64,000 bases of DNA, taken from contig JAURZI010000135.1 of the NCBI GenBank assembly GCA_030653435.1, positions 1 through 64,000 on the forward strand, in the 5' to 3' direction. Every line of letters begins with the position of its first letter. Position 1 is the stretch's first letter. The notes beneath the pieces were generated by a model. That model was not told the origin of the DNA, did no database searches, and saw nothing but the letters and a program-made list of their open reading frames with translations. A program made the translations under genes and the position numbers. Below, piece after piece: positions 7,358-58,426 of the stretch. This stretch comes from Methylovulum sp. GTDB taxonomy: Bacteria; Pseudomonadota; Gammaproteobacteria; Methylococcales; Methylomonadaceae.

Positions 7358-10300
7358 ATGCATAGACGCGTTGCACTTATAGCTTATTCGCTCCGTTTTC
7401 CAGGTACAGATACACAAAACTTCTGGAATGATCTGCTGGCAAAAAAAGACTTGGTCACAGAAGTTGATTCAACGCGTTGGTCTAAGGACAGCTTTTTGCA
7501 TCCAGATAAACGTCATCCGGGCAGCAGCTACACTTTTGCTGCCGGTAGTCTCGGTGACATATCGGGCTTTGATGCGGCTTTTTTTGGTATCTCACCGCGT
7601 GAAGCTGCGCTTATGGATCCTCAACAACGGTTGCTGTTGGAACTGGCGTGGGAAACGTTTGAAAATGCAGGCATAGTGCCGTCCTCATTGCGTGGTAGTG
7701 ATTGCGGGGTTTATGTCGGCATTTCCAACGTGGACTACGCCTATCGTTTAGCCGATGATTTGGCGGCAATTGATTCTTCTGCGGCGACCGGCATCATTTC
7801 CAGCATTGCGGCGAACCGGATTTCCTATGTTTTTGATTTTCATGGTCCCAGTATCTCGATGGATACGGCCTGTTCATCATCCTTGGTAGCTTTCCACCAA
7901 GCCTGTTTGGCTATACGGTCAGGCGAGATCTCCCAAGCTTTGGCCGGTGGAGTTAATCTTCACCTGCATCCTTACGGTTTTATCTCCTTTTCAAAAGCGA
8001 CGATGTTGTCAAAAACAGGCCGTTGCCATGTTTTTGATGAGTCCGGCGACGGCTATGTGCGTTCTGAAGGCGGCGGCCTGTTTTTGCTTAAGGATTACGA
8101 CCAGGCGGTTGCCGATGGCGACCAGATTCTTGCCGTTGTGGCGGGTAGCGCCATTAATACCGACGGGCATAAGTCCGGCTTGACGATACCTAATCCTGAT
8201 GCACAAGCGGCATTGATGTCCCGTGTTTATCAACAAGCGGGTATAGCTCCTGACGCGATTGATTATTTTGAAGCTCATGGCACCGGCACTGCGGTTGGCG
8301 ATCCTATAGAAACGCATGCTATCGGCTTGGCGTTGGGGCAAAAAAGAAAAACACCGTTGTTAATCGGTTCAATCAAAAGCAACTTAGGCCATCTGGAATC
8401 GGCTTCCGGTGTTGCCGGTCTGGTTAAAGCCTTGCATTGTATTCAACACCGCGCCGTGCCCGCCACGATCAGCGCCCGGAATTTAAACCCCAATATCAAC
8501 TGGGCGGACTGGAATCTCCGTGTTGCCACTGAAACTCAAGCGTTAAAGGCGACGGGCGACTTGATTGTCGGTATCAATTCCTTCGGCTTTGGTGGCGCCA
8601 ATGCCCATGTCATCTTGCAAGGCCATAGCGAGGCAGCGCGACCAGCACCGGCAATAACCAATACTGTCTGCCGGGCCAGCCAGCTACCGCTTATCGTATC
8701 GGCAAAAGACTTTTCAGGGCTCAAGCAGGCGGCTTTGGAGCTGGCTGGTTTTCTTGACGGGGGGCTTGAAGAGCCGAATGCCAGGGCATTTTACGATATT
8801 GCACATACGGCTTTTTTTCGCCGAGAACACCATCCGCATGGCGCTGTTGTTTTTAGCAACACGGCTGACGATGCCGCTGAACAGCTTAGGCGTTTTGCAA
8901 ATGCGGAAGGCAAACCCGATAAAGCCGCTGAAGTGCGGCGCGTCTATGCCGGAAGTCGCGTAGCGAACGCAACTGGGCCCGTGTTCGCCTATTCTGGAAA
9001 TGGCTGCCAATGGCATGCTATGGGTAAGCAGTTGCTGGAACAATCGGCTATTTTCCGTAGCAAGATAGTTGAAATCGATAAGTTGTTTGGCGAATATGCC
9101 GATTTCTCCTTGCTCGATGAACTGGCTGGTGCCAACGGCAATCGCTATGGATACACGGAAATAGCGCAGCCCGCATTGTTTGCCTTGCAGGTGGGTATTA
9201 CCGAACTGCTTAAGGGGCATGGCATACACCCTACAGCCGTTATTGGCCATAGTGTAGGCGAAGTGGCGGCGGCATGGGCGGCAGGCGCGCTTACGCTGGC
9301 CGCCGCCGTCAAAGTGATTTATTACCGCAGTCACTACCAGGGCAAGACCAAAGGGTTGGGCGGCATGACGGCAGTGGCGTTAAGCGCATCCGATATGCAG
9401 GCCTTGCTGGTTAAATCCGGCTTGGGCCAACTGTATCTGGCCGGTATTAACAGTCATCGGGGTGTAACGATTGCTGGTAGTGTCGAAGAACTGGCGGTGC
9501 TTGAAAGCGAGCTAGCCGTAACAGGCACTTTTTTTAAGCGCCTGGATCTGGATTACGCTTTTCACAGCCCGGCTATGGATGCTATTGAAGTCGGTATACG
9601 CACTGATCTTAAGGCGCTGGACCCGAAGCCGCCGATCATACCGTTCTTTTCATCGGTAATCGGTGCAGCATTGGGTACGCTTAAGCTGGATGCCGAATAC
9701 TGGTGGTATAACATCAGGCAACCGGTGCTGTTCCAGCAGGCCGTCGATGCCATGTTGGGCACGGGGCTTAATGCTGTCGTTGAAATTGGCGCACATCCGG
9801 TCTTGCAGTCCTACCTGAATGACAGCCTTAAAATTACTGATAGCCAAGGCCTTGTGATTCCCAGCATCACGAGGAATAACGGCTCCAGCGCCCAGCTGAT
9901 GAACAGTGTTGCGCTGGCGCTGCTTTCAGGGATCGGTGTCGAGCACGGGCACTGGTTCCCGATTGCGGGACAATTTGTCAATCTGCCCAACTATCCTTGG
10001 CAACGCGAAAAATTATGGCATCCCGTCACTGCAGAATCTTACGGCTTGCTGGCACGAAAAAAAATCCATCCACTACTGGGCTATGCCGTCCCGCAGCATG
10101 AGCTGCTTTGGGAAAACCAACTGGATACCCAGGCGCAGCCTTATTTGTCCGACCATAACGTCGGTGGTGCGGTCGTGTTTCCGGGTGCCGGTTTTGCGGA
10201 GCTGGCGCTGGCGGCCGCTATCCAGGTGCATTCTGGCGACTTTATTGAAATTGAAGAGTTGGAGATCCGCTCGCCGCTATTGCTGAGCCACGACCATAGC

Positions 10301-13300
10301 AAAATGATACGGTTTGCCATGGACGCGGTTGACGGCCGGTTTACGTTACGTAGCCGGGAGTTGGCGAAATCCTCCGAGTGGTTGCAGCACTGCGTCGGCC
10401 GGGTGTTGGTTGATGCCAGCGGCAATGCCTTTAAAGGCACAAGTAAATTTGATCTGACGGCATCCGTTACGCCGGATAGGGCGCCTGATTTTGATCGTGC
10501 CGGCCACAGCCGCTTGACGGAAAGCGTGGGGCTTGAATATGGTGCCGCATTTCAGGCGATCAGCCATGGCTGGGTAGAAGGCAACCGCGTGTTAGGCGTG
10601 CTGGTGCTGCCTGAAATGATCCGTGCAGATTTTGACCGCTATTACTTGCATCCGGCTTTGCTGGATTGTGCATTCCAGCTTATTTTTCAGTTGCTTAAAG
10701 ATGATATCGCGCGGCATGAAGGCATGGCGTTCGTGCCTGTCAAAATGGGCAGGATACATTTACGCACGGACAAGGCCGTACCGGTTTTCGCAGAGGCCAC
10801 GTTATTGCATCGTGCCCCGCATTCGCTGAACACCGAATTTGTAATATACGATGCTGATGGTCAGGCCATTGCCGTTATCAAAGATGTCCGTTTCCGTGCC
10901 GTACGTTTACATCGGCAGCATGCACAGCATGTGCATTATCTGGATTATCACCTGACCGCCGCACCGTTGCCGGTTGCTAATACGCTGTTTGGGGACGGGG
11001 CGCGTAGTATCCCCGCGCGGGCCGCATTCGCTATGTCAGCGGATATCGACGACAGCCAACGTTATAGCGACGAAGTCGAACCGTTGCTGGATAGTCTGTG
11101 CAATCAGTTCATGTTCGAAGCACTTGCTACGTTGGCTGATGCTAAGGGGTATTTGTCCGGCAATCGGATAGACGGGCACTGTGCCGCCCATCCCCAGTCA
11201 GAGGCTTTGCTACGCAGCATGCTTGCTGTTGCAGAAGAAAACCAATTGCTGACCGTCGTTGCCGAAGCGTCGTCCGCCCAGGTATGTGCAGGCGTGCACA
11301 CGGGTTGGCAGCTTAACCGTGAAGAATTGGAGCAAGGCATTCCTGCAACCGCTATCTGGAACACCTTGGTCCAGGAATACCCCGATTATTTTTATCCGGT
11401 TCATCTGGCCGGTCGGGTGGGCATACAATTGCCCCGTTTATTAAGCGGGGCGCTTCAGGCCGAAGATCTAGGCGTAACGCCGGCGCTTTATGCTAACGTG
11501 ACCAGCCATATACTTGAACAGACCGGTAAAAAAAGCTTGACGGCGGCATTAGCCAGGCATTGCCTGCACATCATGCAAGCCTTGCCGGTAGGGGAACGGC
11601 TGCGGATTTTAGAAATCGGCGCGCACAAGCCCGAATTTGCGGCCTTGATTTGTTCCCAGCTGGATTTTAATCAGGGCGACTATTGTTACGCCAGTTTCTG
11701 TGATGATGCGTTGAGCGCGGCGCAAGGCTTGCGGGACCAATTTCCATTGCTGCAAACCTTACGCTTGTCGGAAACGACTGAGCCCACAGGTCATGCTGTA
11801 GCGCAGGCCAGTGTAGCGATAGTCAATCTGGCTATGGGCAGTGTTCAGGATGTGCAGCAATTGCTTAATAGGTTGCCTGAATTACTGGCGCCGGGCTGCG
11901 CTGTTTTTTTTATCGGCCAGCAACCTGCGCGTTGGATAGACATGGTGTTGGGCACGGCGCCGGGGTGGTGGATACAGCAGGCCGGGCAGCCGTTGTTGTC
12001 TCCGCAGTTATCGGCTGATGCCGTTACCGAACAATTACAAGCCTTGCCGTTCGACGACATACACGTGCATGAGTTTATGCCGGGGCGCTTATCCGGCGTT
12101 TATGTGCTCTCTGCCCGAAGGGCGGCCGCCTCTTGCTCCGCTGGTCTGCCGGATGAACTCCAGGTCAGGCATTGGTTAGTGCTCGCAGGCCGACTGGAGA
12201 AAGAACGTACGCTAGCCCTACATATCACCGCGCAACTCCAGGCTCAAGGCCATTTCGCCGTATTACAGAATCCAGGGTCAGATGCAGATTTGCCGCAGTT
12301 GCTGAGCGATGCGAAAACGGCTGGCTGTGCGTATGATCATATCGTGCATCTGGCGGGTTACGGTCACGCAGATGCCGATATGCAAACGCAACGTTGCTGG
12401 TTGGCCGCCGAACTGATCCAGGCGTGTGAGACAGTGGCAACGCCGGTGACGGTGTGGTTGGTGACCCGGCAAGTCGGCTCCTTATGGCCTTGCGACCAAG
12501 ATGGTGCGTTTACTTTTCCCGAAGCTATTGCAAATGATGCGGCATTGTGGGGATTTGGCCGCAGTTTGATGAACGAGGCGACGAATTACCGTGTGCAGTT
12601 ATTGGACATCAACAGCGAGTTCTGTTCTGCGCCATTGCTGGATGCCGTGGTGGCCGAACTGCTGTGCGGGGATGCCGAGCAGGAAGTGGTTTTAAATGCA
12701 GTCGGCAAACGTTTTGCCCCGCGCTTACGCAGCAGGGACAGGTTGGCGCAAGACCAGCGTGTAGAACTGTCAACGCAAAGCCAAACCGTGCAATTGTCTT
12801 TCAAACTACCAGGGCAGCTGCGTAATTTACAGTGGCATGCCATTTCCGAGCGGTCGCCGGCCGCCGACGAAATCGAAATTGACGTAAAGGCAACCGGGCT
12901 AAATTTCCGTGATGTCATGTATACCTTGGGATTATTGTCCGATGAGGCCGTCGAAAACGGCTTTGTAGGGCCTACATTGGGTTTGGAGTTTGCTGGTTTG
13001 GTGACGCGCACAGGGCATGCGGTCACGGCATTCAAGCCGGGCGACGCTGTGGTCGGCTTGGGGCCTGCCAGTTTCAGTAACCGGGTTTTGACCAAAGCCA
13101 ATGCCATTGCGCTGATCCCCGATAATATCAGCTATGCGGCTGCGGCAACGATACCCAGTACGTTTTTTACCGTCTATTATGCCTTGCATTATCAAGCGCG
13201 TTTGCAAGCGGGCGAAAAAGTGCTGATTCACGGTGCCGCAGGCGGCGTAGGTATTGCCGCTATTCAAATTGCCCAATGGCTAGGCGCGGAAATTTACGCG

Positions 13301-15058
13301 ACGGCAGGATCGGATGAAAAACGTGATTTTCTGCGTTTAATGGGTATCGAACATATCCATGATTCGCGCTCACTAAGCTTTGCGGAAGAAATCCTCGCGA
13401 AAACCAATCATCGTGGTGTCGATGTCGTGCTGAATTCGCTGGCGGGCGAGGCGATTAACCGAAATTTTCAGGTCTTAAAACCATTTGGTCGCTTTCTTGA
13501 GTTAGGCAAGCGTGACTTTTATGAAAACACGCATATCGGCTTGCGGCCGTTCCGTAACAATATCAGCTATTTTGGGATTGATGCCGACCAACTGATGCAG
13601 GAGCGGCCTGAGCTGACGCAACAATTGTTTCATGACATGATGCAATTGTTTCGCACCGGCGTGCTGCATCCGTTACCGTATACCGTTTTCGATGCCAATC
13701 AGGCGATTGATGCCTTCCGTTATATGCAGCAAGCCAAGCAAATCGGCAAGATTGTCGTGACGTATGATAACGGCATCCATGCCAAACCTGCCGGGGAACC
13801 CGCTGAAAAAGCGCCGTTGCAACTTGCCGGGGACGCCAGTTATTTAGTGACCGGCGGCTTGGGTGGTTTCGGTTTAAGGACTGCCCAGTGGCTGGTTGGC
13901 AAAGGTGCGCGGCATCTTATTTTAATCAGCCGTAGCGGGCCGGAGTCGGAAGAGGCCAAGCTGGCGCTGGATGGATTTAAGGCGCAAGGTGTGCTTGTTT
14001 ATGCCGCAGCCTGCGATGTGAGCGACAAAACTGCCGTTGCGGCCCTATTAAAACGCTGTGCTGCGGCGTTGCCGCCGCTAAAAGGCATTATCCATGCCGC
14101 AGCGGTGATTGAGGACAGTCTGGTACGCAATCTGAACGCTGAACAGCTGCAACGGGTCATCATCCCTAAAATCCAGGGGGCGCTGGTGTTGCATGAACTG
14201 ACGCGGGCCCAGCCGCTGGATTTGTTTGTGCTGTATTCTTCTGTGACCACCTTGTTCGGCAACCCTGGGCAAGCCAATTATGTCGCCGCCAACCTATGGC
14301 TGGAAGCGCTGGCGGCGCACCGTCGGCAACAAGGGCTGGCATCAACCTGCATCTGTTGGGGCGCGATAGACGATGCGGGCTATCTGACGCGTAACGAAAA
14401 AATCAAGGAAGCCCTGCAAAGCCGCATGGGTGGTTCGGCGTTATCAGCTGCGGGCGCATTGGCGGTGCTGGAAAAATTATTGCAGGAGGATCAGGCCGAT
14501 GCTGCTGTGGCGTTAGGCGTCATGGAATTTGACTGGCGTGCGTTAAGCGCCTTCCTGCCGACGGCAGGGTCGCCTAAGTTCCGTGAGCTTGCCATGCAGG
14601 CGCCTAAGGCTGACAGCAATGATGACCATAGGGCCGACATCAGGCGTTTGTTGGACGAGCTGGCTGATGACGAGTTGCAGGTCGCTTTTATTGCCATGCT
14701 GAAAGAAGAGCTCAGCCAGATCTTGCTGGTCAATAAGGAAAAAATTGATGCCAACCATTCCATGTATGATATGGGACTGGATTCGTTAATGGGCGTTGAA
14801 TTGATGATTGCGATAGAAGCGCGTTTTGACGTGCAAATTCCGGTCTTGGCGCTAAGCGAAGCGCCGACGTTGAACAAACTGGCCGACAGGCTGATTACCC
14901 AGTTGCGCGGGGATAAGGTGCAGGATTCGGAAGCGGCTAGCACCTTGGCTAATATCAACGACTTATCCAAGCGCCATGGCTCAGCGGTGACCCAGGACCA
15001 GATTTCGGCATTGACCAAAGCGCTTGAAGCCGACAGCTCCAGCAGGATTATCCACTGA
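7358..15058 (+). CDS. rkpA: Type I highly reducing polyketide synthase, RkpA-like
   Basis: Single-module iterative-type PKS of 2566 residues that should build a long reduced acyl chain. Domains in order: ketosynthase (1-430; C172, H307, H345), acyltransferase (about 540-840; GHSVGE with S632, YAFH motif suggesting malonyl-CoA), dehydratase (about 895-1165; H933, D1103), a methyltransferase-like region with a degraded SAM motif (ILEIGAHKPEF, near 1415), a structural KR half (about 1640-1770), enoyl reductase (about 1790-2120; HGAAGGVG at 1958), ketoreductase (about 2155-2340; TGGLGGFG, Y2308) and acyl carrier protein (S2476 in GLDSLMG). There is no thioesterase. The next gene starts 1 base after the stop. 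Size, domain order and gene neighbours match rhizobial RkpA, needed for K-antigen capsule. Confidence 0.93.
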   Translation: MHRRVALIAYSLRFPGTDTQNFWNDLLAKKDLVTEVDSTRWSKDSFLHPDKRHPGSSYTFAAGSLGDISGFDAAFFGISPREAALMDPQQRLLLELAWETFENAGIVPSSLRGSDCGVYVGISNVDYAYRLADDLAAIDSSAATGIISSIAANRISYVFDFHGPSISMDTACSSSLVAFHQACLAIRSGEISQALAGGVNLHLHPYGFISFSKATMLSKTGRCHVFDESGDGYVRSEGGGLFLLKDYDQAVADGDQILAVVAGSAINTDGHKSGLTIPNPDAQAALMSRVYQQAGIAPDAIDYFEAHGTGTAVGDPIETHAIGLALGQKRKTPLLIGSIKSNLGHLESASGVAGLVKALHCIQHRAVPATISARNLNPNINWADWNLRVATETQALKATGDLIVGINSFGFGGANAHVILQGHSEAARPAPAITNTVCRASQLPLIVSAKDFSGLKQAALELAGFLDGGLEEPNARAFYDIAHTAFFRREHHPHGAVVFSNTADDAAEQLRRFANAEGKPDKAAEVRRVYAGSRVANATGPVFAYSGNGCQWHAMGKQLLEQSAIFRSKIVEIDKLFGEYADFSLLDELAGANGNRYGYTEIAQPALFALQVGITELLKGHGIHPTAVIGHSVGEVAAAWAAGALTLAAAVKVIYYRSHYQGKTKGLGGMTAVALSASDMQALLVKSGLGQLYLAGINSHRGVTIAGSVEELAVLESELAVTGTFFKRLDLDYAFHSPAMDAIEVGIRTDLKALDPKPPIIPFFSSVIGAALGTLKLDAEYWWYNIRQPVLFQQAVDAMLGTGLNAVVEIGAHPVLQSYLNDSLKITDSQGLVIPSITRNNGSSAQLMNSVALALLSGIGVEHGHWFPIAGQFVNLPNYPWQREKLWHPVTAESYGLLARKKIHPLLGYAVPQHELLWENQLDTQAQPYLSDHNVGGAVVFPGAGFAELALAAAIQVHSGDFIEIEELEIRSPLLLSHDHSKMIRFAMDAVDGRFTLRSRELAKSSEWLQHCVGRVLVDASGNAFKGTSKFDLTASVTPDRAPDFDRAGHSRLTESVGLEYGAAFQAISHGWVEGNRVLGVLVLPEMIRADFDRYYLHPALLDCAFQLIFQLLKDDIARHEGMAFVPVKMGRIHLRTDKAVPVFAEATLLHRAPHSLNTEFVIYDADGQAIAVIKDVRFRAVRLHRQHAQHVHYLDYHLTAAPLPVANTLFGDGARSIPARAAFAMSADIDDSQRYSDEVEPLLDSLCNQFMFEALATLADAKGYLSGNRIDGHCAAHPQSEALLRSMLAVAEENQLLTVVAEASSAQVCAGVHTGWQLNREELEQGIPATAIWNTLVQEYPDYFYPVHLAGRVGIQLPRLLSGALQAEDLGVTPALYANVTSHILEQTGKKSLTAALARHCLHIMQALPVGERLRILEIGAHKPEFAALICSQLDFNQGDYCYASFCDDALSAAQGLRDQFPLLQTLRLSETTEPTGHAVAQASVAIVNLAMGSVQDVQQLLNRLPELLAPGCAVFFIGQQPARWIDMVLGTAPGWWIQQAGQPLLSPQLSADAVTEQLQALPFDDIHVHEFMPGRLSGVYVLSARRAAASCSAGLPDELQVRHWLVLAGRLEKERTLALHITAQLQAQGHFAVLQNPGSDADLPQLLSDAKTAGCAYDHIVHLAGYGHADADMQTQRCWLAAELIQACETVATPVTVWLVTRQVGSLWPCDQDGAFTFPEAIANDAALWGFGRSLMNEATNYRVQLLDINSEFCSAPLLDAVVAELLCGDAEQEVVLNAVGKRFAPRLRSRDRLAQDQRVELSTQSQTVQLSFKLPGQLRNLQWHAISERSPAADEIEIDVKATGLNFRDVMYTLGLLSDEAVENGFVGPTLGLEFAGLVTRTGHAVTAFKPGDAVVGLGPASFSNRVLTKANAIALIPDNISYAAAATIPSTFFTVYYALHYQARLQAGEKVLIHGAAGGVGIAAIQIAQWLGAEIYATAGSDEKRDFLRLMGIEHIHDSRSLSFAEEILAKTNHRGVDVVLNSLAGEAINRNFQVLKPFGRFLELGKRDFYENTHIGLRPFRNNISYFGIDADQLMQERPELTQQLFHDMMQLFRTGVLHPLPYTVFDANQAIDAFRYMQQAKQIGKIVVTYDNGIHAKPAGEPAEKAPLQLAGDASYLVTGGLGGFGLRTAQWLVGKGARHLILISRSGPESEEAKLALDGFKAQGVLVYAAACDVSDKTAVAALLKRCAAALPPLKGIIHAAAVIEDSLVRNLNAEQLQRVIIPKIQGALVLHELTRAQPLDLFVLYSSVTTLFGNPGQANYVAANLWLEALAAHRRQQGLASTCICWGAIDDAGYLTRNEKIKEALQSRMGGSALSAAGALAVLEKLLQEDQADAAVALGVMEFDWRALSAFLPTAGSPKFRELAMQAPKADSNDDHRADIRRLLDELADDELQVAFIAMLKEELSQILLVNKEKIDANHSMYDMGLDSLMGVELMIAIEARFDVQIPVLALSEAPTLNKLADRLITQLRGDKVQDSEAASTLANINDLSKRHGSAVTQDQISALTKALEADSSSRIIH

Positions 15059-15059
15059 T

Positions 15060-16382
15060 ATGGCAGGCAAGAGTTTATCAGGCCAGGTCAAAGACAAACT
15101 TATCCAGCAGGCGTTGGAACGCAAGCTGAAAAAACTCGGCTCTGAGCAGCAGGAGACTAACCCGTTAAAAGCTCGTTCCGATATTCCTGAGACCTGGTGC
15201 CGGTTTGACCAGTATCCTGGTTATAAACAGTTGCAGATCATTTATAAAGGCGGTGCCCAGTTCGGCATAGCCAGCCCGTTTTTTCGTGTCCATGAAGGCA
15301 TAGCGGGAGCGACTACCCGGATTGGTGGCCGCACTTACATCAATTACGCCAGTTATAATTATCTTGGCCTTTCCGGCGACCCACGAGTATCCGCTGCCGC
15401 CAAGGCGGCGGTAGATCAATACGGCACGTCGGTGTCGGCCAGTCGCCTGGTTTCCGGTGAAAGACCGATACACCGACAACTGGAAGCGGCTTTGGCGGAC
15501 ACTTACGGGGTTGATGACGCGGTGGTGATGGTCAGCGGTCATGCCACCAATGTCACGACCATCGGTTATCTGTTCGGTGCCAATGACTTGATCCTGCATG
15601 ACGAACTGGTGCATAACAGCACCTTGGTCGGGGCGCAGCTGTCAGGCGCCAAACGCCTGCCTTTCCCGCATAACGATTACGCCGCGCTGGATAAGTTACT
15701 GGGCGAACAGCGCAGACACTATGAACGTGTGCTGATCGTCATTGAAGGGCTTTACAGCATGGATGGCGATTTCCCCGACCTGCCGCAGTTTATCGACATC
15801 AAGCAGAAGCACCGCGCCTTTTTAATGATAGATGAGGCCCATTCGTTTGGCGTTATGGGCAACAACGGTTTGGGCCTACGCGAATATTTTAATGTAGACG
15901 GCAAAGTGGTTGATATCTGGATGGGCACGCTCAGCAAATCGTTGGCCGGCTGCGGTGGCTATATCGCCGGTGAATCTGCACTCATAGAACATTTAAAGTT
16001 TTTGGCACCCGGATTTCTGTATAGTGTCGGTATGCCGCCGCAAGTCGCGGCGCCGGCGCTGTCGGCACTGGCTATCCTGAAACAGGAACCGGAAAGGGCA
16101 AGGCTGTTGCAGGCACGCTCCGACTATTTTTTATCGGCTGCAAAAGCGGCCGGCATTGATACCGGGCTTAGCCAAGGCATCGCGATCATTGCCGCGATCA
16201 CCGGTAGTTCCATAGGCGCTGCCCGGTTATCGCAGGCGCTGTTTGATAAAGGCATTAATGTGCAGCCCATTTTATATCCTGCCGTGCCTGAAAAAAGCGC
16301 GAGGTTGCGGTTTTTTATTTCTTGTGAGCATACCGAACAGCAGATTGACGAGACTATTCAAGCCTATTGCGAAGAAATGTAA
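15060..16382 (+). CDS. rkpG: PLP-dependent alpha-oxoamine synthase, RkpG-like
   Basis: PLP enzyme of the KBL/BioF/serine palmitoyltransferase family (440 residues). It joins an acyl thioester to an amino acid with loss of CO2, giving a 2-amino-3-keto product. Visible motifs: YNYLGLSGDP, GTSVSASRLVSGE, the cofactor-stacking region VSGHATN, DEAHSFG, and the Schiff-base lysine K293 in TLSKSLAG. Unlike BioF it has an N-terminal extension of about 60 residues. It follows the PKS with a 1-base gap; as the PKS has no thioesterase, this enzyme probably releases the acyl chain from the carrier protein. The amino acid substrate cannot be read from sequence. The ATG at 15060 is preferred to an upstream in-frame start at 15024 inside the PKS. 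Confidence 0.9.
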   Translation: MAGKSLSGQVKDKLIQQALERKLKKLGSEQQETNPLKARSDIPETWCRFDQYPGYKQLQIIYKGGAQFGIASPFFRVHEGIAGATTRIGGRTYINYASYNYLGLSGDPRVSAAAKAAVDQYGTSVSASRLVSGERPIHRQLEAALADTYGVDDAVVMVSGHATNVTTIGYLFGANDLILHDELVHNSTLVGAQLSGAKRLPFPHNDYAALDKLLGEQRRHYERVLIVIEGLYSMDGDFPDLPQFIDIKQKHRAFLMIDEAHSFGVMGNNGLGLREYFNVDGKVVDIWMGTLSKSLAGCGGYIAGESALIEHLKFLAPGFLYSVGMPPQVAAPALSALAILKQEPERARLLQARSDYFLSAAKAAGIDTGLSQGIAIIAAITGSSIGAARLSQALFDKGINVQPILYPAVPEKSARLRFFISCEHTEQQIDETIQAYCEEM

Positions 16383-16421
16383 TCCTTGTCTTCTAATCAT
16401 TGATTAATCCAGGAGTAAATC

Positions 16422-17654
16422 TTGAGTGCCGACAAACGCTCTTTTCTTTTTTTGCAAGGACCTTGTTCGTTATTATTTTCCAGAATTGCCGATAGACTGG
16501 GGAACCATGGGCATGCCGTCCATAAAATCAATTTCAATGGTGGCGATATTGTCTACTGGTCACCACGAAAATCGATCTGGTTTCGTGAAAAACTTGAGAT
16601 GCTGCCTGATTTATTGGAATCGGTATGGGTAAAGTACGGCATTAGCGATCAAATCCTGTTTGGTGACTGCCGCCCGGTGCATAAAGCCGCTGCAGTGCGT
16701 GCCGAACGCTTCGGCGTCCGCAGCTATGTATTTGATGGCGGTTATTTTCGCCCGCTCTGGATAACGCTGGAACGCGAAGGCGTTAATGGGCATTCGTTAT
16801 TGCCGAGAGACCCGGCCTGGTTCAGGGAAACGGGCAGGAAGCTGCCTGAACCTCCGGCGCCGCAGCGGTTTCAACCCTCGTTTGCCACACAGGCCACGCA
16901 TGATGTGCTCTATCATCTGGCCGGCATCAGTAACCCTTTATTTTTTCCGCATTATAAAAACCATGTTTCGGTTGCCGCACCCATAGAATATGCGGCCTAT
17001 CTCAAACGCTTTGCGCTATTGAAACTGAATAAACGTCAGGAAGAGCGAATAATCGACAACCTGCTCAGCGATAAAAGGCCTTTTTTTCTGTTGCCGTTAC
17101 AACTCAACAGCGATGCCCAGATTATTAACCACTCGCATTTTGAGAACATGTCTGAAGTGATTGCGTATGTCATGCGCTCTTTTGCAGGGCACGCGCCGGT
17201 TCATGCACGTCTGGTCATAAAAAATCATCCTCTGGATATGGGATTGGTCGATTATCCAAAAGACATTGCCTTGCTTGCACAGGAACTGGATATTGCGGGG
17301 CGTATTGTTTATATCGAATCCGGCAATATCACCCGCTTATTGGCACAGGCCGCCGGCACAGTCACTGTTAACAGCACCTCAGGGAGCGCTGCACTGGAGC
17401 TGATGTGCCCCATTATGACCTTGGCCGATCCTATCTACAATTTGCCGGGACTGACTTTCCAGGGACAATTGGATGCCTTTTGGAACGCTCTCCCAAAACC
17501 GGACTCGGCGTTGTTCGATTCTTTTCGCAAGATTGTCATGTACAGTACGCAGATCAATGGTAGTTTATATTGTAACTACGGAACACAACTGGCTGCTGAA
17601 AATGCAGCCCGTGTGCTTGAAGCTGAAAAATCACCGCTAGAGGAATTGCTATGA
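16422..17654 (+). CDS. rkpJ: KpsS-like capsule polysaccharide synthesis protein, RkpJ-like
   Basis: Cytoplasmic protein of 410 residues resembling the Capsule_synth (KpsS/LipB) family, whose members transfer Kdo to the lipid anchor of group 2 capsules. Visible features are the N-terminal FLFLQGPCSLLFSRIADRL, GDCRPVHKAA, the VIKNHPLD segment and the C-terminal VNSTSGSAALELMCPI, typical of this fold. The start is a TTG at 16422 with AGGAG six bases upstream. Its stop overlaps the ATG of the dehydrogenase gene. It likely links the lipid made by this operon to a surface glycan. Equating it with rhizobial RkpJ rests on family and context. Confidence 0.8.
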   Translation: MSADKRSFLFLQGPCSLLFSRIADRLGNHGHAVHKINFNGGDIVYWSPRKSIWFREKLEMLPDLLESVWVKYGISDQILFGDCRPVHKAAAVRAERFGVRSYVFDGGYFRPLWITLEREGVNGHSLLPRDPAWFRETGRKLPEPPAPQRFQPSFATQATHDVLYHLAGISNPLFFPHYKNHVSVAAPIEYAAYLKRFALLKLNKRQEERIIDNLLSDKRPFFLLPLQLNSDAQIINHSHFENMSEVIAYVMRSFAGHAPVHARLVIKNHPLDMGLVDYPKDIALLAQELDIAGRIVYIESGNITRLLAQAAGTVTVNSTSGSAALELMCPIMTLADPIYNLPGLTFQGQLDAFWNALPKPDSALFDSFRKIVMYSTQINGSLYCNYGTQLAAENAARVLEAEKSPLEELL

Positions 17655-18424
17655 AGCAAGCTGGGCCGGTAACGGTGCTGATCACCGGTGCGACAGGGGC
17701 TATCGGCTATGCGCTTGCCAGATATTATGCAAAACCGGATGTTTGCCTGATATTGCAGGGGCGTAATGCCGACACGCTGGACGCATTGGCTGAGGTGTGC
17801 CGGGCGCAAGGTGCCGAGGTGTGGGTGCGGGTGCTGGATTTGCGCGATATACCGGCTTTACAGCAATGGCTGGCAGAAATAATAGCCGGGCGCTTGCCTG
17901 ATCTGGTGATTGCAAGTGCAGGCGTTAATACCAATAACGGTCCCGGTCGGCAGGGCGAGTCCTGGCAAGATATCGAAGCCTTGCTGGATGTGAATGTCAA
18001 ATCGACATTGGCGTTGGTCAACGGCCTGATTCCGGCCATGCGCCGGCGTGGTAGCGGGCAGCTGGCATTGCTCAGTTCGCTGGCGGCGTTTTACGGCCTG
18101 CCGCTCACGCCCAGTTATTGCGCCAGCAAAGCCGCAATAAAGGCTTATGGCGAAGCATTGCGGGGTTGGCTGGTTAGGGACGGTGTCCAGGTCAATGTCG
18201 TGATGCCGGGCTATGTCAAATCCGCTATGTGCGATGAGATGCCGGGGCCGAAGCCGTTTTTGCTGGCACCGGAACAAGCGGCGCGCTTGATCGCCCAAGG
18301 GTTGGCAAAAAACCAGGCAAGAATCAGTTTTCCTTTTCCGCTTAACCTGGGCTGCTGGTTGCTGGCGGTATTTCCGGCTGCGCTATCGCAGCGGTTTTTA
18401 CGCTTGCTTAATTACGGAGGCTGA
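17651..18424 (+). CDS. rkpH: Short-chain dehydrogenase/reductase, RkpH-like
   Basis: NAD(P)-dependent classical SDR of 257 residues. The nucleotide-binding motif TGATGAIG lies near residues 12-19, with NAG-equivalent ASAGVN, catalytic Ser in LLSSLAAFYG and the YCASK catalytic pair. The C-terminal 25 residues are hydrophobic (LNLGCWLLAVFPAAL), suggesting membrane contact with a lipid substrate. In this operon it could reduce the 3-keto group left by the alpha-oxoamine synthase, like 3-ketosphinganine reductase. It overlaps the upstream gene by 4 bases and is followed 1 base later by the next gene. Confidence 0.9.
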   Translation: MKQAGPVTVLITGATGAIGYALARYYAKPDVCLILQGRNADTLDALAEVCRAQGAEVWVRVLDLRDIPALQQWLAEIIAGRLPDLVIASAGVNTNNGPGRQGESWQDIEALLDVNVKSTLALVNGLIPAMRRRGSGQLALLSSLAAFYGLPLTPSYCASKAAIKAYGEALRGWLVRDGVQVNVVMPGYVKSAMCDEMPGPKPFLLAPEQAARLIAQGLAKNQARISFPFPLNLGCWLLAVFPAALSQRFLRLLNYGG

Positions 18425-18425
18425 T

Positions 18426-19988
18426 ATGTCTGCATTACTGCTACTTCTACCGCCGATATTAGCAGGATTTGGAGCCTCTTTTTTTATCGAGTCATGGCTC
18501 ATGCCCAAGCCTGCACCGGTGGCGCAGCGGCCGCTGCCGACGCTGCAATTGCATATCGGCACCTGGCTGTTTTTGTTTGCCGTGGTGCTGTTGCTGGTGC
18601 TGCGACCCTGGTTTGCGGTGGTCATGCTGCTGGCTTTCCAGTTGTTGCTGGTCTTGGTTAACCACGCCAAATATGACAGCCTGCGTGAGCCGTTTATTTT
18701 TCAGGATTTTGAATATTTTACCGATGCGCTCAGGCATCCGCGTTTGTATCTGCCATTTTTCGGCGTCGGCCGCACCTTGGCTGCCACGCTAGGTTTTGTT
18801 AGTGCCTTAGTGATAGGGATCATGCTGGAAACGCCGCTGACAGCGGCTTTGCCGTTGTCGCTATTAGTGCCGGTCTGGTTGGTGCTGCTGTTGGTCGGCT
18901 GCGCGCTGATTATCCGGGGTTTGAAAAATTGTCCGGCAATCACCTGTGATCCTGGTTTGGATTTGCTTAACCTGGGCCAGATTGCCTTTTTTTGGGCGTA
19001 TCAGAAAGCCGAACGACACACCGCTATTAATCTGACCGCATCGCCTTTTCAGGTCATGCCGCAGTTTGCTGATAAAGCCAAGCCGCCGCATATTGTTGCC
19101 GTGCAAAGCGAATCGTTTTTTGATCCACGAATTTTATCCGGCAATATAAAAACGGATGTGCTGGCGCATTTCGACCGGATAAAAACCGAAGCCGATTATT
19201 ACGGACGTTTACAGGTGCCTGCCTGGGGTGCCAATACCGTTCGCACAGAATGTGCGTTCCTGACCGGCTTGGTGCCGGAACAATTAGGCATACATCAGTT
19301 TAATCCTTACCGCTCGCTGGCGGCGCTCAGTATTCCCAATCTTGTTGCCAGCCTGAAACAATCAGGTTATCGGACGATCTGCATACACCCTTATCCAGCC
19401 AGTTTCTATTTGCGCCATCTGGTTTTTCCGCGCATGGGCTTCGACCGGTTTATGGATATTACCGAATTTAATGGGCAGCAAAAAGACGGTCAGTACATCA
19501 GTGACGCGGCGGTGGCAAATCGGGTCGCCGAGCTGTTGTCGACGCCGGATGCAGGGGGCGGCGATGAGCCGCCGCTGTTTATTTTTGTCATCACGATGGA
19601 AAACCACGGCCCGTTACATCTTGAACAGCCGCAAGCGGGCGACCAACAACGGTTTTACCAACAAACACCGGAATCTGGATGCGAGGATATGACGGTTTAT
19701 CTGCGACATTTAAAAAATGCGGATTTGATGATAGCGAGCCTGAAAACGAGCTTGCAAGTCCAGGCCAGCGAACCTGGGCGCGGTCGCGGCGGGGTGTTAT
19801 GCTGGTATGGCGACCATGTCCCTATCATGACGGGTGTTTATCAGTTATACGGTGAGCCTGACGGCCTGACGGATTATTTTATCTGGCAGACCCCGCCGTC
19901 TGCGCTGCAGGACAGCCCCAGGGTAGGCGAGGGGCGTAATATCTCCGTTAATGAATTGGCGGCCTTGATGTTGAAAGCCATCGCTTGA
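18426..19988 (+). CDS. rkpI: LtaS-type membrane sulfatase/phosphotransferase, RkpI-like
   Basis: Membrane protein of 520 residues with an N-terminal region of about five helices (residues 1-170) and a periplasmic alkaline-phosphatase-superfamily domain. The domain begins at PHIVAVQSESFFD (metal site). A likely nucleophile threonine is T271 or T274 in GANTVRTE; ENHGP and WYGDHVPI supply the other metal ligands. Such enzymes move phosphoglycerol or phosphoethanolamine groups onto glycans or lipids outside the cytoplasmic membrane. It is the last gene of the PKS operon and ends 24 bases before the convergent mxaL. The RkpI name is by operon comparison. Confidence 0.82.
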   Translation: MSALLLLLPPILAGFGASFFIESWLMPKPAPVAQRPLPTLQLHIGTWLFLFAVVLLLVLRPWFAVVMLLAFQLLLVLVNHAKYDSLREPFIFQDFEYFTDALRHPRLYLPFFGVGRTLAATLGFVSALVIGIMLETPLTAALPLSLLVPVWLVLLLVGCALIIRGLKNCPAITCDPGLDLLNLGQIAFFWAYQKAERHTAINLTASPFQVMPQFADKAKPPHIVAVQSESFFDPRILSGNIKTDVLAHFDRIKTEADYYGRLQVPAWGANTVRTECAFLTGLVPEQLGIHQFNPYRSLAALSIPNLVASLKQSGYRTICIHPYPASFYLRHLVFPRMGFDRFMDITEFNGQQKDGQYISDAAVANRVAELLSTPDAGGGDEPPLFIFVITMENHGPLHLEQPQAGDQQRFYQQTPESGCEDMTVYLRHLKNADLMIASLKTSLQVQASEPGRGRGGVLCWYGDHVPIMTGVYQLYGEPDGLTDYFIWQTPPSALQDSPRVGEGRNISVNELAALMLKAIA

Positions 19989-20012: not shown

Positions 20013-20981
20013 CTATCTTGGTCGGCGGACACCGCGCGATGGTTTACGAACAATCCACACATAAATCAGTATATACAAGCCCAACCCCACCATAGCCGCT
20101 TGCCAGCGGACATCAACGGCAATGTCTTTTTGCACGGCAAAATCCCGGATTTGCAAAGCCTTAGTCAATTCGTCCTCTGTCGTTAATCGCTGGTAATGCA
20201 AGCCAGCCTCCGCGCTGAGTGCCTGCAAATAATTTTCCTGTAAAGCCGACAAATGTTCGGCGCCAACCGCCGCTGCACTGCCGAACGGCGCGTTGCGGGC
20301 GTTGTAACCCTGTATTTTTTCAGGATTCAAATCCGATTCGCCGAATGTTGAGCGCTGCGGCACGTCATCGGGGCCGTAAACTCCGTCCGGCTCGCCTTTG
20401 TTGTTGAATTTTGGTATGGCTACAGCTTGCAAGCCGCCGACACCGATAATCATGCCTTTCAATTTGCCTTTGACGGCGGAAAAATTGCTGCGGTAACGCG
20501 GGTTGATGGGCGGGGCTTCTTGCCCGTCGGTGATAAAGATAGGGTGGGTGTCGAGTTTTTGCAACATCTCCAGCGTATTTAACAGGCCGCCGGCGATGCG
20601 GCTGTCGGCGGCCCAGGCCATGCGCCAATCGACTTTTGCCAAGGCTGTGTCGATGTCGTTATAGCCTCGGCAGACTTCTATCGGCTCAAATAACAAGGCC
20701 GAACGACGTTCGGTGAACAAGCCCAAACCGACTTTGGATTGGCAGGGCAGTTTTGCCAACAAACCGCGCAGACTGTGTTTGACATGCTGCAAACGGCTGA
20801 CGGCTTGACCGTCTTGTTTATAATCGGCGGCGTTCATGCTGCGGGTAATGTCGATGATAAAGGTGTAATTGTAGATAGGGCGTTGCTGGATGTGCTCTGG
20901 GCGCGCGAACAGCACCAGCATGGCGGCAAGGGCCAGACTTAGGCACCAGAAACGGTAATCTTGGTAGGCTTTTGATGGCAT
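20013..20981 (-). CDS. mxaL: MxaL, VWA-domain methanol dehydrogenase assembly protein
   Basis: Membrane-anchored von Willebrand A protein of 322 residues. An N-terminal helix precedes a VWA domain with the metal-site motif DITRSMN, and a second helix lies near the C terminus (MVGLGLYILIYVWIV), followed by a basic tail. MxaL, with MxaA and MxaK, is required for calcium insertion into methanol dehydrogenase in other methylotrophs. It is the last gene of the mxa cluster on this strand, 64 bases after mxaK. Confidence 0.9.
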   Translation of the reverse strand: MPSKAYQDYRFWCLSLALAAMLVLFARPEHIQQRPIYNYTFIIDITRSMNAADYKQDGQAVSRLQHVKHSLRGLLAKLPCQSKVGLGLFTERRSALLFEPIEVCRGYNDIDTALAKVDWRMAWAADSRIAGGLLNTLEMLQKLDTHPIFITDGQEAPPINPRYRSNFSAVKGKLKGMIIGVGGLQAVAIPKFNNKGEPDGVYGPDDVPQRSTFGESDLNPEKIQGYNARNAPFGSAAAVGAEHLSALQENYLQALSAEAGLHYQRLTTEDELTKALQIRDFAVQKDIAVDVRWQAAMVGLGLYILIYVWIVRKPSRGVRRPR

Positions 20982-21008
20982 AGCTGTTATTTATGTTTAC
21001 GCTCATTC

Positions 21009-21024
21009 CCAAGCTCCAGCTTGG
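21009..21024. repeat. Short palindromic repeat, copy 1 (mxaK-mxaL gap)
   Basis: CCAAGCTCCAGCTTGG lies in the gap between mxaK and mxaL. The same core occurs at 24971-24993 and, slightly changed, at 28057-28086, always in an intergenic gap of the mxa cluster. This is the shortest copy. Confidence 0.7.
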
Positions 21025-21044
21025 TAACGAGCCGACGAGTATTT

Positions 21045-21605
21045 TTATGGCAATCCCCTGGGAAACCCCGGCACGGTTGTCCATAACTGTGATTTCTGGT
21101 TGACCGGGCTATTCTCTTCGTTAGTTATCTTGTCCATCTCCGGCAACAAACGCATGGCGACTTCAAGGTTATACTTGGCGTCCCAGAATTGGCTGTCCAA
21201 AGCCAAAGCCTGACGGTAGGACTGTTTCGCTAACGCGACCAAGGGCATGGCGTCGTTGATTGCCATTGCCTCGGTTTTGGCAATCGCCAGGTGCAGATAA
21301 ATATTGCCCAGGTTGTAGCGAATTTTCGCTTGCAACTTAGGATCAGGCGTGTCGAGGATCAGGTTCAGTGTTGCCAGGGCTTCATCGTAACGCTGCAACC
21401 TTTTTAACACCATCGCCCGCGCCAAACGGACTTCCGGCGCGGCGTTGACGACCTTATCCAGGGTGACCTCTTGCCCGGAAGCCAAGGCGGTAATCAATCC
21501 GTTTGTTCGAGCTATGCCATATAGCGTCCATAATTGCGCCAACATCGCGCCACCGCCCAGCAGCAACACGCCCCATAAGGCAATGGTTCTTAATGAGTTT
21601 TTCAT
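21045..21605 (-). CDS. mxaK: MxaK, methanol dehydrogenase assembly protein
   Basis: Protein of 186 residues with an N-terminal membrane helix (LWGVLLLGGGAMLAQLWTLY) and a TPR-like helical body (LKRLQRYDEALATLNLIL, then KIRYNLGNIYLHLA). MxaK is needed for calcium incorporation into methanol dehydrogenase; its biochemical action is not known. It overlaps mxaC by 4 bases. The assignment rests on this TPR layout and on the conserved mxaA-C-K-L order. Confidence 0.88.
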   Translation of the reverse strand: MKNSLRTIALWGVLLLGGGAMLAQLWTLYGIARTNGLITALASGQEVTLDKVVNAAPEVRLARAMVLKRLQRYDEALATLNLILDTPDPKLQAKIRYNLGNIYLHLAIAKTEAMAINDAMPLVALAKQSYRQALALDSQFWDAKYNLEVAMRLLPEMDKITNEENSPVNQKSQLWTTVPGFPRGLP

Positions 21606-22579
21606 CGTCTCACCTCACAAAACTTTACCGTCAGCAACAACGCCAGCAACCCCGTCGCCGATAAATAACACAGACCGGACAAATCCTGCCTGGGGATGCG
21701 CTCCCGGTAATGCAGTGGCGCATGTTCCAGGCGGTTGATGTCGGCAATCGCTTGCCTCATGGCATCGGGGCTTTCGGCCTGGTAAGCCTGATACGGAATG
21801 TTCAGACTGGAAAAAAACAAATGCAGGTAACGTTCCGGCATAGCCCCGGCGTTGTCATCCCGTGCATCTTGCGGCTTATCGAATAGGCCTGGACTGTTGG
21901 CAGTGCGTAAAAACAACCAGTACAAACGGATTTGCTGTTGTTTGAAGTATTGCCGCAATTGCAATTCGCTGTCCGGGTCTATCGCCGCCGCACCGTCGGA
22001 TACCAATAATACAATGCGCGAACCGCTTAAAGGCTGGTCGGCAAATAGTTCCAAGGCCATGCCCAGGCCTTTGCTGATATGCGTGTAGGCCAGGGCGGGC
22101 GTGGCGGTGGCGTTGATCGCCGCTTGTATCGCCTGCTTATTTTCGGTCAATGGCAGCACAAACAATGGCGCGGTGCTGTATTCGGTGATGCCCAGTAAGT
22201 CATGTGGGCGTTGTTTGACAAACTCAGTGAGCAAACGCCGTGCCGCCGTGGCTTTGGATTCGTCCGCCCCTTCCGGTGTTTTGCCGGCAAACGTGTTGTC
22301 CATGCTGTTGCTGCGATCCAGCAACAACACGATGTTGGCGCCGTAACCGATACGCTCGCGGCTTTGCTCGGTTCGGTGCAGTCCCGCCAGACCCAAGATT
22401 AACGCGGCGATAGTCGCCATGCCGCATAAACGCAGCAGCATGGAAATAACGCTGGACAAGGGGTCTACGGGCAGTATCGCCAGCCACGGATAAGTTGTGG
22501 GACGGATGCCGTTGTTGAACACCGGCAATAATGTCAATAACAAGCCCGCCAACAGCAACGGCGTATCCACGGCAAGCAT
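21602..22579 (-). CDS. mxaC: MxaC, VWA-domain methanol dehydrogenase assembly protein
   Basis: Protein of 325 residues with an N-terminal pair of membrane helices (residues 5-65), a VWA domain with the metal-site motif LLDRSNSMD near residue 87, and a C-terminal helix (LCYLSATGLLALLLTV). This is the BatA-like layout found next to MoxR ATPases. MxaC belongs to the set of accessory proteins needed for an active, calcium-loaded methanol dehydrogenase. Its start shares bases with the mxaA stop and its stop overlaps mxaK. Confidence 0.9.
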   Translation of the reverse strand: MLAVDTPLLLAGLLLTLLPVFNNGIRPTTYPWLAILPVDPLSSVISMLLRLCGMATIAALILGLAGLHRTEQSRERIGYGANIVLLLDRSNSMDNTFAGKTPEGADESKATAARRLLTEFVKQRPHDLLGITEYSTAPLFVLPLTENKQAIQAAINATATPALAYTHISKGLGMALELFADQPLSGSRIVLLVSDGAAAIDPDSELQLRQYFKQQQIRLYWLFLRTANSPGLFDKPQDARDDNAGAMPERYLHLFFSSLNIPYQAYQAESPDAMRQAIADINRLEHAPLHYRERIPRQDLSGLCYLSATGLLALLLTVKFCEVRR

Positions 22580-24323: not shown

Positions 24324-24332
24324 AGCTAGCGC

Positions 24333-24947: not shown

Positions 24948-24970
24948 GTCGATGTATGCTCGTTATGTTC

Positions 24971-25018: not shown

Positions 25019-25055
25019 TGTCATTGGATATCCGTTATTTGACATTGCCTTGAAT

Positions 25056-58419: not shown

Positions 58420-58426
58420 GGAACTT

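Follow-up and report, generated by a model that had tools for sequence, protein, structure and literature searches.

A polyketide synthase–alpha-oxoamine synthase operon of Methylovulum sp. with the gene set of rhizobial rkp-1 and a proposed role in priming a sphingoid capsule anchor

In the group 2 capsule system of E. coli, KpsS and KpsC act on (lyso)phosphatidylglycerol, lyso-phosphatidylglycerol being the known acceptor of KpsS. KpsS works in the cytoplasm, while LtaS enzymes work at the inner membrane, on its outer face. Regarding the rhizobia, a review describes the rkp-1 region as making and modifying, for the secretion of capsule, a 'specific lipid carrier', and Sinorhizobium rkp-1 mutants as capsule-deficient; a link between wcb and rkp has been drawn for Burkholderia in another paper (PMC3908369). 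In the study of P. fluorescens MYb115, the polyketide synthase (PKS) and the alpha-oxoamine synthase (AONS, AOS) are needed for sphinganines in Pseudomonas, the products being C24-C28 sphinganines, together with lipids 154 Da heavier that were read as phosphoglycerol-sphinganines, and the free sphinganines are biologically important (PMC12134224). In the same study, the step of the short-chain dehydrogenase (SDR) and the phosphoglycerol-sphinganine structure are the authors' proposals, and PfSgaB is described as an L-serine-specific serine palmitoyltransferase with a near-exclusive preference for serine (PMC12134224). The main text of that paper holds no mention of rkp, capsul, KpsS, LtaS or sulfatase.

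In the window, which is the whole stretch of 64,000 nucleotides of Methylovulum sp. DNA that was analysed, the plus strand between 7358 and 19988 carries genes for a PKS, an AONS, a KpsS-like protein, an SDR and an LtaS-type protein, as seen from their open reading frames and Pfam families:

7358..15058, plus strand, highly reducing single-module type I PKS of 2566 aa, RkpA/SgaA/WcbR type (Pfam, motifs)
7364..8473, plus strand, ketosynthase domain, aa 3-372 (PF00109, PF02801)
8981..9898, plus strand, acyltransferase domain, aa 542-847 (PF00698; GHSVGE, YAFHS)
10067..10906, plus strand, dehydratase domain, aa 904-1183 (PF21089, PF14765; HNVGGAVVFP, DCAFQ)
11609..11899, plus strand, degenerate methyltransferase-like stretch of the PKS (PF08242 at E 0.042, under the cut-off)
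12800..13762, plus strand, enoylreductase domain, aa 1815-2135 (TIGR02824 stretch; PF00107, PF13602)
13835..14371, plus strand, ketoreductase domain, aa 2160-2338 (PF08659)
14699..14893, plus strand, acyl carrier protein domain, aa 2448-2512 (PF00550; GLDSL)
15060..16382 (mechanical open reading frame from TTG 15024), plus strand, AONS of RkpG/SgaB type (class I/II PLP enzyme by Pfam)
16422..17654, plus strand, KpsS-like beta-Kdo transferase of RkpJ type (Capsule_synth PF05159; QxxxD at aa 227-231, HP at aa 269)
17651..18424, plus strand, SDR of RkpH/SgaC type (Pfam; TGATGAIG, YCASK)
18426..19988, plus strand, LtaS-type membrane phosphotransferase of RkpI type (Sulfatase PF00884)

The families and motifs on each open reading frame bear out the five-gene set described in a sequence-only reading of this DNA, and the genes likely form one operon. 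They are separated by 1 base (PKS/AONS), 39 bases (AONS/KpsS) and 1 base (SDR/LtaS), with a 4-base overlap at KpsS/SDR; the gaps or overlaps of 1-4 bases reported in that reading are thus right at three of the four junctions and wrong at AONS/KpsS. For the AONS, the probable start is ATG 15060, which lies one base past the PKS stop, instead of TTG 15024, because the AONS of relatives begin at about that residue. Scans for promoters (7 promoter-like sites against 13.1 expected) and terminators (23 terminator-like against 18.2) stayed at or near chance, and therefore the operon start and end were not located.

The domain order of the PKS is KS-AT-DH-(degenerate MT)-ER-KR-ACP, and no thioesterase family is found among its 15 Pfam hits, in agreement with the earlier description of a reducing PKS without this domain. 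The ketosynthase bears the motifs DTACSSS, HGTGT and NLGH, the nucleotide motifs occur in ER and KR, the latter also with its S/Y, and the YAFHS motif of the acyltransferase is one that we take to mark the malonyl type. The methyltransferase-like stretch is probably inactive. In two relatives, a single reading frame holds both PKS and AONS.

All five S. meliloti rkp-1 proteins find their best match at this locus within the 64-kb window, as expected from the proposed identity with rkpAGHIJ. RkpA is 32% and 39% identical to the PKS in two pieces, RkpG 46% to the AONS and RkpJ 36% to the KpsS-like protein, whereas RkpH (26%, a weak best match with 61 bits vs 46 for the ketoreductase of the PKS) and RkpI (27-33%, from an unannotated frame) are distant from their counterparts. 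Besides the common gene set, the two regions differ in gene order, A-G-H-I-J in S. meliloti and A-G-J-H-I in Methylovulum, and in their surroundings, as rkp-1 has KpsF-type and polysaccharide export genes adjacent, whereas the Methylovulum operon adjoins no export gene; RkpJ also falls in another KpsS subclade. As in SgaABC of MYb115, a single-module fully reducing PKS without thioesterase is combined with an AOS and an SDR. On a plasmid of Paraburkholderia dioscoreae, one of the Burkholderia/Paraburkholderia loci of wcb type, the run kpsS-sdr-ltaS-pks-lpxC-like-aos encodes proteins 36-59% identical to all five of Methylovulum, but with extra LpxC-like and GNAT genes and another gene order. 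Compared to E. coli group 2, Methylovulum possesses a QxxxD KpsS-like protein and a two-module KpsC-type protein, and a genus relative has a kpsMTED-like operon; however, the KpsS-like gene is co-operonic with sphingoid-lipid genes, and the PKS-linked KpsS form a group of their own in the 54-row tree described below.

Among the 80 named loci read in relatives, 77 hold the PKS. The order sdr then ltaS is kept in 39 of 39, and kpsS, sdr and ltaS follow one another in one order and strand in 23 of the 24 loci holding all three, so that this arrangement is not due to chance. None of the three genes lies near 12 of the 56 long loci (the 80 minus 24 shorter than 19 kb). In Pseudomonas, LtaS is present in all six loci with enough flank, and KpsS and SDR in most (5/6). 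The PKS/AONS pair often adjoins Kdo-capsule genes in other bacteria, and in plasmid loci the gene set occurs with kdsA, kdsB, kpsF and kpsC or as the single run given above. An unrelated secondary-metabolite PKS was rejected, as many relatives retain kpsS, sdr and ltaS; a check for closest relatives in PKS clusters foreign to rkp did not refute the link with rkp, given the best matches of the rkp-1 proteins within the window and the Kdo-capsule neighbours elsewhere.

The KpsS-like protein scored 275.3 bits against the KpsS family NF050054, short of its cut-off of 600, and is therefore named KpsS-like. A QxxxD nucleophile motif, a histidine and, as third residue, a Glu are catalytic in the retaining beta-Kdo transferases (PMC10148158). 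The first two are present in the KpsS-like protein, and Q227, D231 and H269 are invariant in 25 of 25 aligned rows. A PDB search with the single sequence gave no match up to E 0.1, and with a profile only weak KpsC matches (E 0.002-0.03), unrelated ones being equally strong. In a KpsS tree of 54 rows, with E. coli KpsS outside the set, every row that comes from a PKS/AONS locus or genome (33 of 33) falls within one group of 36, while 18 of the 21 PKS-less rows fall outside it. The three PKS-less members of the group are the sole cases of LtaS near KpsS among 20 PKS-less loci read, and the KpsS of genus members without LtaS belongs to another deep clade; together, these observations suggest a KpsS acting on the product of LtaS. 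In the LtaS-linked clade, L115, L125 and L138 show no LtaS in the flank read, and L112, from the other clade, has one. The trees were built on 31, 46 and 54 rows, and the alignments A1, A2 and A3 hold 16, 26 and 25 rows. One genome counted as PKS-less, G127, has a 41%-identical match of the AONS family.

Judged by sequence, the closest PDB match of the LtaS-type protein is GacH, a phosphoglycerol transferase (E 2e-13 with the single sequence, 1.7e-31 by profile), followed in the profile search by an LTA primase (9e-18) and LTA synthases (4e-10 and weaker), and the LtaS-type protein is proposed to be a phosphoglycerol transferase as well. Two other identities were set aside: a phosphoethanolamine transferase, none being among the 9 PDB profile matches, and a plain sulfatase, with just one arylsulfatase match at E 0.007. 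Against the LtaS family NF053595, its 22.7 bits are far from the cut-off of 970. The residues E229, T271, D463 and H464, presumably the metal-site and nucleophile residues of LtaS/GacH-type enzymes, are invariant over 26 rows and at matching places in GacH, and a hydropathy scan shows hydrophobic segments ahead of the catalytic domain, which we interpret as some five helices like those of LtaS. The acceptor proposed here, in contrast to GacH/LtaS, is a sphingoid lipid. LtaS had no match in 4 of 20 genus genomes (one just 76% complete) and in 6 of 17 other PKS/AONS genomes at E 1e-15; the phosphoglycerol step is therefore not universal. Three genus genomes keep the AONS, KpsS-like and SDR genes with no LtaS match.

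The genome holds just two PF05159 genes, the KpsS-like one and a KpsC-type gene on another contig, with 694 aa, a repeated PF05159 and two QxxxD motifs. The latter is preceded by rml genes and the tail of kpsD, inside which the contig ends, and looks like part of a capsule export operon away from the five-gene locus. Of a KpsMTED exporter, that kpsD tail is the only part seen in this genome, and the KpsE family had no match in it; a genus relative (G008) presents the entire order kpsM-T-E-D-rmlCBDA-GT-kpsC, its KpsE being below the family cut-off. Three of the seven ABC-2 matches were rejected as capsule exporter; they read as an O-antigen type (Wzt C-terminal domain), a drrA/PRK15066 type and one with a beta-propeller neighbour. 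The operon gene set is nearly genus-wide in the methanotroph genomes searched. In an order-level survey of 61 genomes, all 20 with an AONS ortholog have strong PF05159 genes, and among those without AONS, only G015 (76% complete) has a strong one and G030 a weak one. Among the genomes drawn across the phylum, 4 of 18 with an AONS ortholog have no strong PF05159 gene; in this draw many genomes were scored on at most four first-look candidates, so that an absence of AONS is not certain. These presence-absence counts were taken without phylogenetic correction.

We propose, with moderate confidence, that the operon produces and primes a lipid on which a group-2-type capsule, Kdo-linked and ABC-exported, is anchored, by a five-step route via phosphoglycerol-sphinganine. 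The iterative PKS would assemble an acyl chain, long and saturated, on its own ACP, and the AONS, replacing a thioesterase, would join the ACP-bound chain with L-serine, the most likely amino acid, giving 3-ketosphinganine. The SDR, a proposed 3-ketosphinganine reductase, would then produce sphinganine, to which the LtaS-type enzyme would transfer phosphoglycerol from phosphatidylglycerol, the product being a look-alike of lyso-phosphatidylglycerol. Finally, the KpsS-like enzyme would add the first beta-Kdo, KpsC would extend the Kdo linker and KpsMTED would export the glycolipid. As LtaS acts outside and KpsS in the cytoplasm, this order would call for an inward flip of the phosphoglycerol lipid; otherwise, the transfers of phosphoglycerol and of the first Kdo would follow another order. 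In this route we infer the use of serine, the action of LtaS and KpsS on a sphingoid lipid, the membrane side of LtaS and the anchoring of capsule. The 2-amino-3-hydroxy lipid anticipated by the sequence-only reading is backed by the published SgaAB chemistry and would be the product here, but a C18-type chain is probably too short, the Pseudomonas system having C24-C28 (PMC12134224). That reading assigned no step to the LtaS and KpsS proteins, for which transfer of phosphoglycerol and of the first Kdo is proposed here. Its link to a surface glycan is kept as a probable one, the remaining capsule genes being found in other parts of the genome.

It seems rather unlikely that KpsS puts Kdo straight on sphinganine in the cytoplasm and that the LtaS-type protein decorates the exported glycolipid or glycan outside. 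Such an order would agree with the outer location of LtaS-type proteins, known for the family and in keeping with the helices read from the hydropathy scan, and with the three genus genomes that retain the other genes without LtaS. Against it, a probable phosphoglycerol-sphinganine is reported from MYb115, with no mention of Kdo (PMC12134224), and in the KpsS tree the PKS-less members of the PKS group are exactly those adjoining LtaS, while the LtaS-less genus members belong to a different deep clade. Quite improbable is a free membrane or signalling sphingolipid, a secondary metabolite as in MYb115, with the KpsS-like enzyme a mere neighbour acting on ordinary lyso-phosphatidylglycerol. The free sphinganines of that strain, which exist and matter biologically according to that study, would fit this reading, and so would the 4 of 18 genomes without a strong PF05159 gene; but kpsS lies inside the operon, overlapping the SDR gene by 4 bases, all 20 AONS genomes of the order have strong PF05159 genes, with G015 as the sole strong AONS-less case, the Pseudomonas loci carry LtaS (6/6) and mostly KpsS and SDR, and rkp-1 mutants are capsule-deficient according to the review.

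The amino acid is a further point, since with glycine, alanine or another one the AONS would yield a 1-deoxy or other amino lipid and no sphinganine proper, which we regard as very improbable. Its highest family scores are indeed those of BioF (334.3 bits, cut-off 426.45) and glycine C-acetyltransferase (290 bits), both below cut-off, and the three serine palmitoyltransferase NCBIfam equivalogs are also missed (284.7/640, 265.1/500 and 208.6/670 bits), so that the AONS is not filed as one of them. However, the nearest solved structures, 3a2b and 8guh, are serine palmitoyltransferases, and seven Pseudomonas AONS are 62-64% identical to it, the near-exclusively serine-using PfSgaB being itself outside this comparison. 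A phosphoglycerol transferase would also need a free 1-OH.

Taking the phosphoglycerol-sphinganine route as the preferred reading, there may be, at about even chances, a second class of capsules, widespread in Gram-negative bacteria and anchored on PKS-made phosphoglycerol-sphinganine instead of lyso-phosphatidylglycerol, with a dedicated KpsS lineage recognising the mimic; with similar even confidence, its bearers would be methanotrophs, pseudomonads, Halomonas, Alcaligenaceae, rhizobia and others. The gene set is already known from root-nodule bacteria, and what is new is the anchor chemistry proposed; a literature search, with most subscription journals and bioRxiv outside it, returned no paper tying PKS sphingolipids to capsule anchoring. 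If true, the capsule genes of rhizobia and Burkholderia and the bacterial PKS sphingolipids would be one pathway described in two literatures, and it would be clear what the LtaS-like and KpsS-like genes do. Many bacteria unknown for sphingolipids would then make them as capsule anchors, and methanotrophs, where the gene set is nearly genus-wide, would have sphingoid-anchored capsules.

Regarding the source organism, it is very likely a methanotroph, because its genome (4.66 Mb, 161 contigs) has a single match to PF02461 (pmoA/amoA family) and the window, as its open reading frames (ORFs) were read, carries xoxF-type methanol dehydrogenase, pqq and serine-cycle genes. ORF reading places the dehydrogenase and its cytochrome at 28135-29943, and a block resembling serine-cycle genes at 53572-59314. 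In addition, the three closest named relatives of the locus, among the 80 top-ranking ones out of at least 584, are Methylococcaceae MAGs. The ORFs and Pfam domains delimit the locus as follows:

7358-19988, + strand: likely five-gene operon (PKS, AONS, KpsS-like, SDR and LtaS-type genes)

Upstream, a gene read as TlpA-like ends at 6991, 366 bases before the operon, which should end at 19988, because the next gene (20013-20981) reads the opposite way. The successive gaps are 1 (PKS/AONS), 39 (AONS/KpsS), -4 (KpsS/SDR) and 1 (SDR/LtaS) bases, and the AONS most likely starts at the ATG at 15060. By ORF reading, an opposite-strand BatA/BatB-like von Willebrand operon occupies 20013-26165, its end lying 24 bases past the LtaS-type gene.

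The PKS possesses all tested motifs of KS, AT, DH, ER, KR and ACP, as seen by Pfam and motif scan, with no Pfam match to a thioesterase and a methyltransferase-like stretch scoring under the cut-off. Its AT carries YAFHS, which we take to be of the malonyl type, so that an unbranched saturated chain is the expected product. In the AONS, the residues that we take to be catalytic (K305, D270, H273, H197 and R429) are kept in 16 of 16 aligned rows, and the closest solved structures are the bacterial serine palmitoyltransferases 3a2b and 8guh (E 3e-63). The SDR has the motifs TGATGAIG and YCASK, and the best alignment of the LtaS-type protein is to GacH, a phosphoglycerol transferase. Moreover, Q227-x3-D231 and H269 of the KpsS-like protein, invariant in 25/25 rows, correspond to the nucleophile motif QxxxD and the catalytic histidine that PMC10148158 describes for retaining beta-Kdo transferases.

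The sequence-only reading had noted the same gene set in the rhizobial rkp-1 region (rkpAGHIJ) and suggested comparing the five proteins with Sinorhizobium RkpA, G, H, I and J. For this comparison, the rkp-1 proteins were taken from the S. meliloti Ak57 record CP090106.1, which itself lacks rkp names; those used here are our own assignment, presumed from gene order. When the PKS, AONS, SDR, an unannotated frame (RkpI) and the KpsS-like protein were searched against the 64-kb window, all five found their best match in the operon, in line with that reading, with identities of 32/39%, 46%, 26%, 33% and 36%, respectively. According to a review (PMC4881576), the rkp-1 gene products are responsible for both the synthesis and the modification of a specific lipid carrier that serves capsule secretion.

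As described in PMC12134224, in P. fluorescens MYb115 the PKS SgaA and the AOS SgaB produce C24, C26 and C28 sphinganines; three more lipids, heavier by 154 Da, are interpreted as phosphoglycerol-sphinganines; purified SgaB has a nearly exclusive preference for L-serine, and an SDR is suggested as the reductase. The main text of that paper has no mention of rkp, capsul-, KpsS, LtaS or sulfatase. Among the Pseudomonas loci with enough flank (6 of 7), an LtaS-type gene lies near PKS/AONS in 6/6, and SDR and KpsS are present in 5/6. On the Pseudomonas plasmid NZ_CP016850.1 the genes run pks, aos, phyH, kpsC-like, GNAT, LTA synthase, sdr, kpsS, kpsC, phosphotransferase, kpsF, kdsB and kdsA, with a set for Kdo supply and transfer adjoining the sphingoid set. 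Four genes separate aos and sdr there, which would also be the number in MYb115 if its locus tags step by five; this number varies among the Pseudomonas loci read. Next to the AOS of this plasmid (15384-19145 of the fetched locus, L181), a phytanoyl-CoA dioxygenase-like gene and a GNAT gene suggest possible hydroxylated or N-acylated sphingoid variants.

In the 80 top-ranking named loci, out of at least 584, the PKS is found in 77, sdr is followed by ltaS on the same strand within 2.5 kb in all 39 loci with both, and the order kpsS-sdr-ltaS holds in 23 of the 24 with all three. The 56 named loci of at least 19 kb contain PKS in 54, LtaS in 37, SDR in 36, KpsS in 29 and KpsC in 17, and 12 have none of KpsS, SDR and LtaS. 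A Paraburkholderia plasmid has the order kpsS-sdr-ltaS-pks-lpxC-like-aos-GNAT, with proteins 36-59% identical to those of the window; the LpxC-like deacetylase gene between PKS and AOS (L192:13037-13951) belongs to Paraburkholderia dioscoreae. One comparison genome (G229) joins PKS and AONS in a single open frame of 2622 aa, and in Planktothrix the AONS match lies inside one annotated PKS CDS, which argues for direct transfer of the acyl chain from PKS to AONS. Outside the proteobacteria, AONS domains occur within long genes on Streptomyces (L193:8311-13134) and Planktothrix (L254:2605-10203) plasmids; none of the stretches inspected there has a gene annotated for capsule.

Co-inheritance was followed in 61 genomes: our own, 19 of the same genus, 17 of the rest of the family and 24 of the rest of the order. 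An AONS ortholog (at least 63% identity) is present in our genome, in 18/19 of the same genus and in one further genome, G023, whereas no other match exceeds 38% identity; the only miss in the genus is 76% complete (G015). In G014, the AONS frame (L028) is broken by seven stops (3 TGA, 1 TAG, 3 TAA), either a decayed gene or assembly errors. PF05159 occurs in our genome, in 19/19 of the same genus and in G023; of the 40 others, a single one has it, weakly (G030, E 5.6e-8). In a phylum draw of 398 genomes, 18 have AONS at E 1e-115 or better, and PF05159 at E 1e-40 is found in 14 of these versus 44 of the other 380 (Fisher p 9e-10, not adjusted for phylogeny). An LtaS ortholog is present in 16/20 genus genomes, G023, 0/16 other genomes of the family and 11/17 other AONS genomes, and by coordinates it adjoins KpsC or KpsS in G088, G155, G203, G211, G245, G331 and G375.

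Our genome has two PF05159 genes in all, the operon gene, which is its sole KpsS-like one, and the following:

Contig C75, downstream of rmlCBDA: KpsC-type gene, 694 aa, two QxxxD motifs

This contig starts within a kpsD tail closely resembling that of a same-genus genome (G008), whose full order is kpsM, kpsT, kpsE, kpsD, rmlC, B, D, A, glycosyltransferase and kpsC (rml names from position and length, KpsE from family match). By profile search, the KpsE family has no match in our assembly; in the genus it is found at E 1e-30 or better in 10/20 genomes, weakly in 2/20 and absent in 8/20, none of the matches being above the curated cut-off. From this gene content, capsule export is likely in our genome.

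The KpsS tree comprised 54 KpsS-like proteins, 33 from PKS/AONS genomes or loci and 21 PKS-less. All 33 fall in one group of 36 (support 97/81), and the PKS label requires 2 changes versus 16.9 in shuffles, with 0/500 shuffles as low; within the window's class, the PKS-linked KpsS cluster together with rhizobial RkpJ and separately from seven PKS-less members. Around each PKS-less KpsS except that of G286, 20 of 21 in all, about 10 kb per side was read, or a single side for G064, G080 and G365, which lie near contig ends. LtaS lies near KpsS in 3/20, G363, G377 and G387, exactly the three inside the PKS group. In G363 a kpsM/kpsD-type export operon has an adjoining kpsF-type gene, and the layout of G387 is alike; in both (L242, L244) the KpsS-LtaS pair adjoins capsule export genes, with no PKS or AONS within 20 kb.

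Within the PKS group, KpsS type mostly tracks LtaS presence. The RkpJ subclade (11 rows) includes KpsS of G002, G018, G227, G322 and G325, where an LtaS match is absent at E 1e-15, and of L137 and L162, with no LtaS in the fetched flank; its exceptions are LtaS in L112 and the distant RkpI in S. meliloti. In the window subclade, LtaS accompanies every one of G006, G009, G016, G110, G245, G368 and G455, the exceptions being L115, L125 and L138, without LtaS in the fetched flank. Three genomes, G002, G012 (L101) and G018, combine an RkpJ-subclade KpsS with a longer AONS-KpsS interval, filled by a ppk1-type polyphosphate kinase gene in G018 (L055:11402-13486) and G002 (L057:9472-11565), both genus members without the LtaS-type gene. 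This pattern is the main new evidence, from which we infer that KpsS may act on the LtaS product.

Considering the mechanism, we also infer that the AONS most likely uses L-serine. E. coli KpsS begins its linker on (lyso)phosphatidylglycerol. The site of action of LtaS-type enzymes is outside the inner membrane and that of KpsS inside, a mismatch that is a weak point of the mechanism, as are the members without LtaS and the presumed choice of amino acid. Both the gene set (rkp-1, wcb) and sphinganines made by a PKS have been described before; a 2025 capsule-attachment review (PMC12220298) has no mention of sphing-, rkp, wcb or polyketide, and the literature searched yielded no paper joining PKS sphingolipids to capsule anchoring. 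Because sphinganine with an added phosphoglycerol would be a one-chain phosphoglycerol lipid, the operon may represent a pathway that makes a lyso-PG mimic and also supplies the enzyme that would start on it, a joined PKS-sphinganine/capsule mechanism that would be new within the literature searched.
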